In this document: positions 22,281-44,552 of the stretch, piece after piece
Numbering within the stretch: position 1 is the first letter of the stretch
Layout of the letters: every line of letters begins with the position of its first letter
DNA from: Xanthomonas sp. CFBP 8443
Lineage (GTDB): Bacteria > Pseudomonadota > Gammaproteobacteria > Xanthomonadales > Xanthomonadaceae
Direction of reading: 5' to 3'
Assembly: GCF_025666195.1 (NCBI RefSeq)
Contig: NZ_CP102592.1
Location: 62,001 to 126,000 of the forward strand
Length of the DNA: 64,000 nt
The notes under the pieces: generated by a model
The model's input: only the letters and a program-made list of their open reading frames with translations
Databases searched by the model: none
What the model was told of the DNA's origin: nothing
Position numbers and translations under genes: made by a program

Positions 22281-22345
22281 TGTAGGAGCGGCTTCAGCCG
22301 CGACAGGATCTATCGGTAACGCCTGTCGCGGCTGAAGCCGCTCCT
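22281..22345. repeat. REP pair (head-to-head hairpin), second member split by IS110 element
   Basis: TGTAGGAGCGGCTTCAGCC and then CTGTCGCGGCTGAAGCC run in opposite directions and can form a long hairpin. The second unit is interrupted after GCTCCT (22345). Its continuation ACAAAGGG is found at 23577, on the far side of the IS110 element. Confidence 0.8.
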
Positions 22346-22399
22346 TGTATCTGGACATGGCGCCCCTGAAGGCGTTATGTCTTCCGACTGATCATCGGG

Positions 22400-22540
22400 G
22401 GAGGTGCGGGAAGTCCAGTCGCTCCTGAAGCTTCGAGCTTGTGCTGTAGATCGGCTCCCGCCCTCCATCTGCTGGCCCTGTGGTGTCCGCACGGTATCCA
22501 GAGTCCGCCGCTGGCGTGAACTCGCATCCACAAGGCAGGA
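22400..22540 (+). ncRNA. Predicted bridge RNA of IS110 copy A
   Basis: The target loop is closed by GGAGGTGCGGG (22400-22410) and CCCGCCCTCC (22457-22466). Inside it are AGTCGCTCCT (22417-22426), equal to the left side of a REP target, and CTGTAG (22444-22449), the reverse complement of the right side CTACAG, with an AAGCT-TCG-AGCTT hairpin between. The donor loop holds ACGGTATC (22491-22498), which matches the element's right end (GACGGTATCT), and ACAAG (22530-22534), complementary to the left end CTTGT. Order and pairing rules are those of IS110 bridge RNAs. Exact ends are not visible. Confidence 0.72.
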
Positions 22541-22587
22541 CCGGGCGCAGCGATGATCGTGATCACCCATCCGATGGAGGAGTCCTT

Positions 22588-23559
22588 ATGTCCCCAGTCG
22601 TCGGCATTGACGTCGCCAAGCGCAGTTTCGATCTGGCCATCGACCTGGCCAACGGCAAGTACCGCACCAAGGCCAAGCTTCCCAACGATCCGAAGGGCTT
22701 CCAGGCCCTGCACGCGTGGCTGCAGACGCACGCGCAGGCGGACAGCTGGATCGTGATGGAAGCCACCGGCACCTACCACGAGGCGCTAGCCGAGTTCGTG
22801 CATGGGTTGGGCTACCGCGTGTGCGTACTCAACCCAGCGCAGATGGCGCTGTATGCACGCAGCCAGCTGACCCGGGTCAAGACCGACCGCAGCGATGCCA
22901 AGCTGATCGCCAGCTACGGCCAGCGCCATGCGGCGCAGCTGCGGCCCTGGCAGCCCGACCCGCCGGCGCTCAAGCAGCTCAAGGCGCTGGTGCGGCGCCG
23001 GGACGACCTGCTGCAAATGCTGCAGATGGAGCGCAACCGCCTGGACGTGGCCGCGCCGGTGGTGCGCGACTCGCTCCTGGAGAACATCGGCCAGTTGCAG
23101 GCGCGCATCGCGCAGATTGAACGGGCCATCGACGACCAGATCGACCAGGACCCGACCTTGCGCGGGCAGCGCGACCTGCTGGTGAGCATCGATGGGATCG
23201 CCGACACCAGCGCGGCGTTGATGCTGGCCGAACTTGGCAATGTGGAGCGCTTCGCCCACGCCTCGGCGGTGACCGCCTTTGCCGGGCTCAACCCCCGGCT
23301 GCAGGAGTCCGGCAAGCGCCAGGGCCAGGTCTGCATCTCCCGCACCGGCTCCCCGCGGCTGCGCGCGGGCCTGTACATGCCGGCCCTGGTCGCCATGACC
23401 CACAATCCGGTCGTCCGTGCGCTGAAGCAGCGCCTGCGCGAACGCGGCAAAGCCGGCAAGCAAATCGTCTGCGCCGCCATGCGCAAGTTGCTGCATCTTG
23501 CCTACGGCGTCCTCAAATCAAACACGCCCTTCGATCCTCAAAAGGCCATTGCCTGTTAG
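22588..23559 (+). CDS. IS110-family transposase (DEDD RuvC-like recombinase)
   Basis: The protein has 323 residues and an ATG at 22588 with GGAGGAG upstream. The N-terminal RuvC-like domain shows the DEDD set at Asp8 (VVGIDVAK), Glu58 (VMEATGTYHEA), Asp100 and Asp103 (KTDRSDAKLIA). A coiled-coil region spans about 125-200. The C-terminal Transposase_20 domain has LLVSIDGIADTSAALMLAEL, FAGLNPRLQESG and SRTGSPRLRAGLYM, including the serine-bearing segment. Full length for the family and apparently intact. With the bridge RNA encoded just upstream it should recombine donor and target at CT cores. Confidence 0.92.
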   Translation: MSPVVGIDVAKRSFDLAIDLANGKYRTKAKLPNDPKGFQALHAWLQTHAQADSWIVMEATGTYHEALAEFVHGLGYRVCVLNPAQMALYARSQLTRVKTDRSDAKLIASYGQRHAAQLRPWQPDPPALKQLKALVRRRDDLLQMLQMERNRLDVAAPVVRDSLLENIGQLQARIAQIERAIDDQIDQDPTLRGQRDLLVSIDGIADTSAALMLAELGNVERFAHASAVTAFAGLNPRLQESGKRQGQVCISRTGSPRLRAGLYMPALVAMTHNPVVRALKQRLRERGKAGKQIVCAAMRKLLHLAYGVLKSNTPFDPQKAIAC

Positions 23560-23608
23560 ACGGGAAGACGGTATCTACAAAGGGCTCGCGGCGAACATGC
23601 CGAGTGCA

Positions 23609-23788: not shown

Positions 23789-24547
23789 TCAAGGCTTGGC
23801 CGGCTCCTGCGGCTTCGGCGCGGTTTCCTGGGTGATGTCCTCGACATCGCCGATATCCACGCGGCCGGGCGTGCGGCCATCCCAGACCCGGTCCTGCAGC
23901 TTCCAGTACGCCGCCGGTTCCCAGAATTCCTTGGCGTAGAACACTTCCGGATCGATGCTGCCGCCGCGCGGGCCGTTGATCTGCACGCCGGAGGCGCCGG
24001 AGTAGCCGAGCATGCTGCCGGTGCTGCGTTTGGCTTCGCGGCGCAGCACTGCTTCCTGGCGCGGCTTGGCCACAGCATCGCCATACGTGGCCAGCATCTT
24101 CTTGTCCTGCTTGATCGCGCGCTGCCGCTCTTCGGGCGTCAGCTGCTCCCAATACTCCATCTTGCGCGTCTTGAACGCGTCGTAGCCGCGCTCGGAGGCC
24201 AGTGCCATCCACAGGAACCCCATCGCGCGATCTTGCGCTCCGCCCTGGCCTTCCCAGTACATCTCGCCCAGCCGCGCCTGCGACGGCTTGTCGGCATAGC
24301 GCGCGGCGAGCTGGTAGTTCTTCTTGGCCTCGGCGAACTCGCCCTTCTTGTCGGCGCGGATCCCGGCGCGACGGTAGAACAGGTCCAAGTGCGCCTCGAG
24401 GAAGCCGTCGGTCATCACCTGCGCCGGAATGTCCTCGAACGTACGCGCATTGTCGGCGGCGGCGGCGGCCGTGCCGGGCAGCGCCAGCAGAACCGCCATG
24501 GCCAGGGCGGTGCAACCGCCGACGGCATATCCCTTGAACTGATGCAT
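23789..24547 (-). CDS. Sel1-repeat/TPR-like secreted protein
   Basis: From the ATG at 24547 the protein has 252 residues with a signal region (AVGGCTALAMAVLLALPGTA, cleaved after AAA). Residues about 45-125 contain TPR/Sel1-like helices (GEFAEAKKNYQLAARYADK, ARLGEMYWEGQGGAQDRAMG, FLWMALASERGY), usually a protein-protein interaction surface. The C-terminal half is charged and proline-rich (TAPKPQEPAKP). An upstream in-frame start at 24652 is rejected because it puts the signal inside the protein. It is probably periplasmic; partner unknown. Confidence 0.7.
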   Translation of the reverse strand: MHQFKGYAVGGCTALAMAVLLALPGTAAAAADNARTFEDIPAQVMTDGFLEAHLDLFYRRAGIRADKKGEFAEAKKNYQLAARYADKPSQARLGEMYWEGQGGAQDRAMGFLWMALASERGYDAFKTRKMEYWEQLTPEERQRAIKQDKKMLATYGDAVAKPRQEAVLRREAKRSTGSMLGYSGASGVQINGPRGGSIDPEVFYAKEFWEPAAYWKLQDRVWDGRTPGRVDIGDVEDITQETAPKPQEPAKP

Positions 24548-24827
24548 AGAACTCTTCCCATGAGTGCGATCGCCGCCGATTCTAGACGTGCGCAGCGGCG
24601 GCGATCCATAGACTGATGGCCTATGCGGCCCGTGCCCCGCATGCGTCGTCAATCGCCGTTCATGATCGGCGCATCCGCGCCTGCAGTCGCGCCGAAGCCG
24701 CGGAGGTAAGCACCAAGTCAGTGCATCGCTCGCGGCGGTTGTCGCCTACGCATGCGGCCAACGCGCGCAACCGGGGGCGATCGTCCTACCGGCCGACGCC
24801 CTGACGCGCTATCTCGAGCGCAGAAGG

Positions 24828-35968: not shown

Positions 35969-36040
35969 GCAGCCGGGACTCGGGACTCGGGACCGGGGAC
36001 TCGGAAAAGCGGGGCTCCCGCTCTCTGTAGGAGTCAACTG

Positions 36041-36970
36041 TCATGCAGAAGCGATCTCCGGAGGAGCGTAAGGCGCCTGGTCTCGGGCAATGGCATTGAG
36101 CCATCGCAGGTACTTGTGCATGCACGCGACAATGGCGACCTTGGCGGGTTTGCCTGCGGCGGTCAGGCGGGCGTAGGTGTGTGACAGCGGGGAGCCGGTG
36201 CGGATGGAGGCCCACGTGGCCATGTACAGCACTCGTCGCACGTCGGCGCGTCCGCCCTGGATGCGGCGTTGGCCGCGCCAGCGGCCGCTATCGCGATTGA
36301 ACGGCGCCAGCCCGACCAAGGCGATGATCTTGCGCGGATGCACGGTGCCCAGCTCGGGGAGCCGGGCTGCCAGGGTGGCGCGCAGGATCGGGCCAAGCCC
36401 AGGCAATTTGGGCAGGCTGGAGCAGGCAGCCCCCGCCTGTGCGATCTGCCGGGACACGTTACAGATGCGCTGCTGCAGCAGCGCGATCACCTCGAGCCAT
36501 TGGTCGCGCACCGCCTTGCAGGTCACGTGCTCCATGCAGCGGCGCTGCGCATCGCGCTGGGCGACCAGGGTGCTGCGCAGGTGGAGCAGTTCGCGCAGCG
36601 CCTGCAGCGGCGCAGGGAGCACCGCGGTGGGCTGAGCGTGGATGCACTGGGCCGCCACAGCCAGCAACCGCGCATCCAGAGCATCGGTCTTGGCCTTGAG
36701 TCCCAACGCGTGCGCCAGCGCACGAGGACGCTGGGCAGGCAGCCGGACCGCGGGCAGACCAGCCTGCGTCAGCACCTGCACTATCGCCCGTTCGTAGCCA
36801 CCGCTGGCCTCCAGCACGATCCGCTCGCATCCCAGCAAGGCCAGGCGTTCGGCCAGGCCGGCGTGCCCCTCGGGCGTATTGGCCTGAGTCCAGGTCAGCC
36901 CATCCGGCAAGACGTGAACGACCAGCTCGGCCTTGGAGACATCGATCCCGACAAAGCGCTGCATAGACAT
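36041..36970 (-). CDS. IS110-family transposase (DEDD RuvC-like recombinase)
   Basis: The protein has 309 residues. The DEDD residues are Asp10 (FVGIDVSKAEL), Glu54 (IVLEASGGYE), Asp96 and Asp99 (KTDALDARLLA). The C-terminal Transposase_20 domain has LPKLPGLGPILRATLAARLPE, LVGLAPFNRDSGRWRG and GGRADVRRVLYMATWAS. It is full length and apparently intact. The sequence is clearly distinct from the transposase at 22588-23559, so the two elements are not recent copies of one another. It is divergent in strand from the surrounding plus-strand genes and precedes the tat operon. Confidence 0.92.
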   Translation of the reverse strand: MSMQRFVGIDVSKAELVVHVLPDGLTWTQANTPEGHAGLAERLALLGCERIVLEASGGYERAIVQVLTQAGLPAVRLPAQRPRALAHALGLKAKTDALDARLLAVAAQCIHAQPTAVLPAPLQALRELLHLRSTLVAQRDAQRRCMEHVTCKAVRDQWLEVIALLQQRICNVSRQIAQAGAACSSLPKLPGLGPILRATLAARLPELGTVHPRKIIALVGLAPFNRDSGRWRGQRRIQGGRADVRRVLYMATWASIRTGSPLSHTYARLTAAGKPAKVAIVACMHKYLRWLNAIARDQAPYAPPEIASA

Positions 36971-37005
36971 AGGCGTTCTCCGCAGTAAACTCAGGGACGA
37001 GAGAT

Positions 37006-37148
37006 CTCCTGCCGATGCCCATGCTTGTAGGTTCGAGCTCGCGGCTCAGGCAACTGTTCGGGCTTGCTGGCAGGAGAAACGGAGTGCGGCGGCCCTGACT
37101 CCTACTCGTGCTCGTGAGGCACTGCGACTTAGCGGCCTGCCGCACTCC
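37006..37148 (-). ncRNA. Predicted bridge RNA of IS110 copy B
   Basis: Coordinates are on the plus strand and the RNA reads on the minus strand. The target loop is closed by GGAGTGCGGC/GCCGCACTCC (37134-37148 with 37081-37094). Inside it are AAGTCGC (37124-37130), identical to the left side of the REP target, and TAGGAG (37099-37104), the reverse complement of the right side CTCCTA. The donor loop is closed by CTCCTGCC/GGCAGGAG (37069-37076 with 37006-37013). It holds ACAGTTG (37051-37057), identical to the element's right end, and ACAAG (37024-37028), complementary to the left end CTTGT. Confidence 0.75.
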
Positions 37149-37269
37149 GCTCTCACCTCAACGATAGACCTGCGTAAGACACAAGCGACTTCAGTCGCGA
37201 CGGGCTTTACCGGAGCTGCTTGGTCACGGCAGACGCACTGACGCTAGGCAGCGCCAAGCGGGAAATCCG

Positions 37270-43731: not shown

Positions 43732-44552
43732 TGTAGGAGCGGCTTCAGCCGCGACGAACGAAGTCAGGAAGCCGGCCGGTTTGGCAGCAGTCGGGACTGA
43801 AGTCCCTCCCACAGTGCACCCAGTCGGCATGCTGGGGCTCCTTTGTGGGAGCGACTTCAGTCGCGACGAGCGAAGTCAGGAAGTTGTCCGGCTTCGGTAG
43901 CTGCTGGCCGGGGCTGAAGCCCCTCCTACAGTGCACCTAACCAGCAGGCGCGGCTTGTGTAGGAGCGGCTTCAGCCGCGACGAACGAAGTCAGGAAGCCG
44001 GCCGGTTTGGCAGCAGTCGGGACTGAAGTCCCTCCCACAGTGCACCCAGCCGGCATGCTGGGGCTCCTTTGTGGGAGCGACTTCAGTCGCGACGAGCGAA
44101 GTCAGGAAGTTGTCCGGCTTCGGTAGCTGCTGGCCGGGGCTGAAGCCCCTCCTACAGTGCACCTAACCAGCAGGCGCGGCTTGTGTAGGAGCGGCTTCAG
44201 CCGCGACGAACGCAGCCGGAAAATTGCTCGGCTCCGGCAGCAGTCGGGACTGAAGTCCCTCCCACAGTGCACCCAGCCGGCATGCTGGGGCTCCTTTGTG
44301 GGAGCGACTTCAGTCGCGACGAGCGAAGTCAGGAAGTTGTCCGGCTTCGGTAGCTGCTGGCCGGGGCTGAAGCCCCTCCTACAGTGCACCCAACCAGCAG
44401 GCGCGGCTTGTGTAGGAGCTGCTTCAGCCGCGACGAACGCGGCCGGAAAATTGCTCGGCTCCGGCAGTCGGGACTGAAGTCCCTCCTACAGTGCACCCAG
44501 CGGGCATGCTGGGGCTCCCTTGTGGGAGCGACTTCAGTCGCGACGAGGGGAG
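43732..44552. repeat. Tandem array of 226-bp units, each with four REP monomers
   Basis: TGTAGGAGCGGCTTCAGCC starts units at 43732, 43958, 44184 and 44411. Each unit carries four REP types in order: GGAGCGGCTTCAG, GGGACTGAAGTCCC, GGGAGCGACTTCAG and GGGGCTGAAGCCCC, separated by spacers that are also conserved. The first two units are nearly identical, the third has a changed spacer, and the fourth is shortened, ending at 44552. Short minus-strand frames across it are repeat-derived and not genes. Confidence 0.92.

Follow-up and report, generated by a model that had tools for sequence, protein, structure and literature searches.

The element that we call A, an intact member of IS110, interrupts a REP at a CT dinucleotide, at positions 22346-23576 on the plus strand of the window (the whole 64,000-nucleotide stretch of Xanthomonas sp. 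CFBP 8443 DNA analysed here), and the question which this locus raises is how the element is directed to that point of the repeat. We hold with high confidence that A is an IS621-type member of IS110, whose left-end bridge RNA directs insertion by the recombinase at the CT core of the REP. This reading is built from features of sequence, namely the ends, the core, the match to an RNA model, the co-variation of guides and targets and the empty site. The element and the REP around it are composed as follows:

22325..22345, plus strand: left part of the interrupted REP, GTCGCGGCTGAAGCCGCTCCT, read directly; the first core CT (22344-22345) closes it.
22346..23576, plus strand: IS110 element A, 1231 bp including the second CT, starting with TGTATC; ends set by seven own-genome copies and by the ends common to 87 related insertions.
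22588..23559, plus strand: IS110 recombinase of element A, 323 aa (PF01548, 2.5e-33; PF02371, 4.9e-21), with D8, E58, D100, D103 and S241 located.
23568..23576, plus strand: right end of element A, ACGGTATCT, including the second core CT (sequence reading and comparison of copies).
23577..23583, plus strand: start of the right part of the REP, ACAAAGG (read directly; empty site in relatives).

The first-pass annotation had placed the element between two CT dinucleotides, with a REP restored by its removal, and direct reading agrees: excision in silico restores a normal REP with one CT. The same core dinucleotide is present at both flanks and single in the empty site, as in the IS621 type. The recombinase has the domains of the IS110 family, an N-terminal DEDD domain (PF01548) and a C-terminal PF02371 domain with its serine, and it matches two solved relatives, ISCro4 (9t56, 2.8e-65) and IS621 (8wt6, 1.1e-64). 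Residues D8, E58, D100, D103 and S241 align with ISCro4, and we take them to be the catalytic residues. The non-coding DNA comprises 242 nt 5' of the gene and 17 nt past the stop codon, unlike in the IS1111 group (seekRNA), which has its guide RNA downstream of the gene.

The comparison with related genomes that had been proposed for the empty site bore out the predicted REP with a single CT at part of the loci. The neighbouring gene (23789-24652, minus strand) was found in 18 of the 20 genus genomes, own genome included, and the window minus element A was set against 17 loci (L143-L159). The junction aligned at four of them (L143, L146, L147 and L149), where GTCGCGGCTGAAGCCGCTCCTACA is found, an uninterrupted REP with a single CT, and at the remaining 13 the junction REP was aligned in another register only, or was unaligned. 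Because several REPs are present in the spacer, it is the DNA on the right-hand side of the junction that supports the empty-site alignment; these genomes differ from the window on the other side, left of the REP.

As Rfam at the gathering threshold gave nothing at element A, with its one match in the window located elsewhere, a dedicated covariance model was built from 20 of 23 distinct Pseudomonas-side sequences (Pseudomonas, Stutzerimonas and L023, which is labelled Rhodoferax), with no Xanthomonas among them. The earlier reading that the non-coding 5' end encodes a bridge RNA, for which such a search had been suggested as a check, is supported by the match of this held-out model, and the left end then divides as follows:

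22353..22382, plus strand: first hairpin of the left end, 12-bp stem (minimum-free-energy fold; outside the covariation count).
22382..22549, plus strand: predicted bridge RNA core, with a hairpin, a target-binding loop and a donor-binding loop (covariance model, 122.2 bits, E 8.5e-29; covariation in the hairpin and donor loop).

In the window, the Xanthomonas-free model scores the RNA of element A at 122.2 bits and that of a second element, B (described below), at 43.4 bits, the next match being at 9.6 bits (E 0.42). Across the whole own genome, with the best 150 first-look candidates scored, 12 matches were obtained, which are seven A and five B elements; six of eight genomes have matches (best 150 of 829 to 1456 first-look candidates scored per genome), and none was found among the best 150 candidates of either G001 or G004. 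Together with the pair counts, this points to a structured RNA in the left end, 5' of the gene, as in the IS621 type. The counts were made for the hairpin and donor loop on a chosen subset of 32 aligned sequences, in which 97.4% of cells are paired, falling to at most 46% when the partners are slid by one column. Nine of 22 pairs are changed on both sides (6.3 in shuffles; 5 of 500 as high) and 68 cells carry both-side changes versus 23.7 in shuffles, although kinship among sequences can beat such shuffles even without structure. One of the five structure measures is unsupportive: further pair types number 20, the shuffles averaging 21.3, and 476 of 500 shuffles equal or exceed the real count. 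The target-loop stem is present in the window sequence's own fold and was not recovered in the 32-sequence consensus fold. Elsewhere in the window, at 2695-2777, Rfam finds sRNA-Xcc1 (RF02221, 76.5 bits), which, like the Xanthomonas fragments among the tblastn loci used below, fits a Xanthomonas host.

Within this predicted RNA, four guide words can be read:

22417..22426, plus strand: left target guide, AGTCGCTCCT (guide-target table, co-variation).
22444..22449, plus strand: right target guide, CTGTAG, the complement of CTACAG (guide-target table).
22491..22499, plus strand: left donor guide, ACGGTATCC, which copies the right end ACGGTATCT except for the last base.
22530..22534, plus strand: right donor guide, ACAAG, the complement of CTTGT at the left end (sequence reading, shuffle test).

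It had been claimed that the target and donor guides both match, and all four words are indeed present, but the claim was overstated at two bases. The interrupted REP at this locus reads AGCCGCTCCT, and the left target guide consequently has one U.G wobble against it, while the last letters of the left donor guide are ATCC where the right end has ATCT, so that it misses the second core base. With the one wobble, the target guides fit the insertion site including the core, as in the IS621 type; likewise, the donor guides (ACGGTATC at 22491-22498, and ACAAG) fit the joined ends of the element, except that the second core base differs. When the left target guide (10/10), the right target guide, the left donor guide (at least 8/9) and the right donor guide were required in this order, with wobbles counted for the left target and left donor, the complete set appeared in 0 of 20,000 dinucleotide-shuffled versions of the 242-nt non-coding end. 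The left-target word alone appeared in 253 of the 20,000 shuffles, and the loose left-donor criterion alone in 4942, with another place in the real sequence scoring equally, so that weight is given only to the four-guide combination.

The guides were then compared with their targets in a table of 87 insertions with both ends known, into which 33 of 79 tblastn loci entered; outside it stayed contig-end fragments, tblastn matches with no usable 5' end and L037, which has no left end, and L099 was skipped. For the 12 left-guide types, guide and commonest target agree at 82 of 84 positions (in one tie the non-matching target was taken), and permutations of guides against targets gave a mean of 46.6 and a maximum of 73, with 0 of 100,000 reaching 82, although types that share descent are not independent, and two of the 12 have identical seven left letters and differ at the core only. 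Both of the remaining differences are compatible with wobble, one being U on target C in the Xanthomonas type and the other G on target A (L015, whose guide matches exactly in L028). Individual insertions are found off their guide, L035 at three of seven left positions and L139 at two. The donor guides are near-invariant within the A family, and because they hardly vary, co-variation gives no test of them there. The 54 Xanthomonas-type insertions comprise 50 at GCCGCTC, three at GTCGCTC (L105, L141 and L124) and one at GCTGCTC (L139). L124 (G010) has 83 bp from the 5' end of the element repeated exactly, up to the CT of the left guide, between a REP and a full element; we considered this as an insertion into the guide DNA of another copy, but slippage between shared CGCTCCT words explains it more simply, and it is therefore not counted as evidence of aim.

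On the right side, the guide base agrees with the A/G make-up of the host REPs. It is A in G000, G008 and G018, where GCCGCTCCTAC is followed by A and G in ratios of 357:2, 433:13 and 565:11, respectively, and G in G009, G010, G011 and G012, with ratios of 155:151, 131:237, 96:153 and 16:18. The genomes form about two groups, and the agreement may represent a single change. All 20 A-guide insertions (six rows of G000, 13 of G008 and G018, and a frame-broken copy) are at ACA, in hosts where 98% of sites are ACA anyway. A preference of G guides for CTACG sites within G009 and G010 was not accepted, as 23 of 32 insertions at ACG (L124 included) versus 18.5 expected is a trend only (P 0.07). REPs are also found in the window at 43783-44462, inside three tandem 227-bp units which are 94-100% alike.

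The same kind of REP is occupied in the window by a second element:

36032..37183, minus strand: IS110 element B, at another CT of the same REP kind (five-copy shared stretch 36026-37187, trimmed by REP bases at both ends).
37006..37168, minus strand: predicted bridge RNA of element B (same covariance model, 43.4 bits, E 2e-9).

Element B has five copies in its own genome, and its recombinase is 32% identical to that of A. Both are IS110 elements with an upstream bridge RNA on the same REP kind, but they differ in donor ends and guides, and the targets of B (GAAGYCG-CT-CCTACA or close variants) have their CT three bases upstream of A's core. At the C/T position of the target, the left-guide base of B is T in G000 (four C targets, one T) and G003 (one C, four T), and C in G008 (10/10 C) and G010 (8/8 C). 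The guide base of B thus goes with the REP variant used, with 0 of 18 guide-C insertions at T sites versus 5 of 10 for guide T (Fisher p 0.0026). With 250 GCCGCTCCTAC sites and 10 GTCGCTCCTAC sites in G003, abundance fails to account for the T-site insertions of B in that genome; of nine guide-T insertions at CCTAC sites, four are at GTC versus 0.48 expected (P 0.0008), in a post hoc test conceived after the data were seen and with one G003 copy at a CCCAC site excluded. We suggest tentatively, at somewhat less than even confidence, that Xanthomonas bridge RNA guides track the allele make-up of the host's REP family, the right-guide base following the A/G composition of the REPs in each genome, and that two distant IS110 elements share one such family through CTs spaced by three bases, both having a U able to read the C and T variants.

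For the conserved U in the left guide of A, there is about an even chance that it is ancestral, stemming from a host with GTC REPs, and not an adapted two-variant wobble, which would still be compatible with the guidance of A by its bridge RNA. The U is common to all 54 tabulated Xanthomonas-type copies, probably by descent, and only a small share of the host sites read GTC; nor does A clearly prefer the exactly matching GTC REPs, a preference for which a test gave no support (2 of 54 insertions versus 0.89 expected, P 0.22, with L124 excluded and the frame-broken copy included). Against ancestry stands the distant B element of the same genome, which has U at that same REP position, while its G008 and G010 relatives have C.

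A match to element A at E <=1e-60 is present in eight of the 20 genus genomes, own included, and G019 has a partial match only. The own genome (G000, 5.24 Mb) has seven copies, all at the same REP position with GTCGCGGCTGAAGCCGCTCCT before and ACA after, and 359 uninterrupted REP sites of this type. One copy, L007/L008 at about 829821-832830, has its recombinase split in two frames, with its ends and REP target intact; it was part of the seven-copy comparison and stands outside the table of 87. This broken copy might speak for A as a dead relic with its bridge RNA out of use, which we regard as very unlikely, as the recombinase frame is open and full-length in six of the seven copies and five, the window copy among them, are identical across 1231 bp at separate loci. 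Such identity suggests recent movement, and element A is probably functional. Least probable of all, and only barely credible, is that the REP is recognised by protein-DNA contact or as a hairpin, the non-coding end being a regulatory leader with accidental or by-product guide matches, for although REPs are palindromic and protein contact could yield seven of seven insertions at one point, guides and targets change together across the 12 types, some of the targets, for instance TTTCCACCCT and GCAGCGGCT, bearing no likeness to the REP of A, and among B elements the guide base is associated with the REP variant used, at the frequencies given above.

To return to guidance by the bridge RNA, the 242-nt left end would encode an RNA with guides for the host REP, GYCGCTC-CT-ACA, in one loop and guides for the joined element ends, ACGGTATCT-TGTAT, in the other. 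With this RNA, the recombinase would join the circular element to a REP at its CT core, so that either flank ends up with one CT. Circle formation, transcription from a joined-end promoter and RNA-guided strand exchange are presumed by analogy with IS621, for which a natural sigma-70 promoter in the joined ends is described (PMC11208160). The corresponding candidate in element A is as follows:

23549..23554, plus strand: possible -35 box, TTGCCT, which would pair with a -10 box, TATCTT, found only on joined ends (circular form).

TATCTT arises where the two ends meet in all 44 distinct junctions, and a -35-like word 17 bases 5' of it scores at least 4/6 in 32 of 44, although this word overlaps the gene end and its conservation may come from coding. 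In the left end as integrated (22300-22620), a scan for consensus promoters found none.

Element A belongs to the known IS621 type and is not a new kind. It shares with IS621 of Escherichia coli (PDB 8wt6) the recombinase family, the upstream bridge RNA with target and donor loops, the CT core, a REP target and a natural wobble. IS621 is described as inserting in REPs, with a tolerated rG:dT pair at position 4, where its usual natural target deviates from the guide, which the authors relate to that pair (PMC11208160). In contrast, A uses another REP sequence, has a U.G wobble at the second of seven left positions, and its guide agrees with the host REP for at least one base beyond CTAC. ISCro4 (PDB 9t56) is the best sequence match among solved structures (2.8e-65), with a different host and target. 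In Pseudomonas, REP-occupying elements are described at one fixed point (ISPpu9 7/7, ISPpu10 7/7, ISPa11 6/6; PMC1525189), and ISPpu10 and other such IS110-family elements resemble A by this description; these reports predate the bridge RNA. Small RNAs of ~180 nt are reported for ISPpu9 on Northern blots (PMC8450116), while the RNA of ISPa11, an IS1111 member, is mapped downstream of the gene (PMC11187229), unlike the upstream RNA of A. No description of element A was found in the titles and abstract starts of open-licence literature on IS621/IS110 in Xanthomonas, and Xanthomonas is unmentioned in the available text of PMC1525189 and PMC11208160. What is mildly new is the agreement of the right-guide base with the host REPs and the second IS110 element at a CT three bases away, with a variant-matching guide base.

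Element A extends the well-documented natural systems of the IS621 type to a further group of bacteria, its host offering hundreds of ready targets, and the 87 insertions with known guides and targets provide a natural test of guide rules such as wobbles and guide length. The best new part is that there are two IS110 elements with the guides of both going with the same host REP family, and with A and B side by side, the adaptation of RNA-guided elements to a repeat family could be followed. If the guides do track the REP alleles, REP families would serve several RNA-guided elements as a shared set of addresses that itself evolves.
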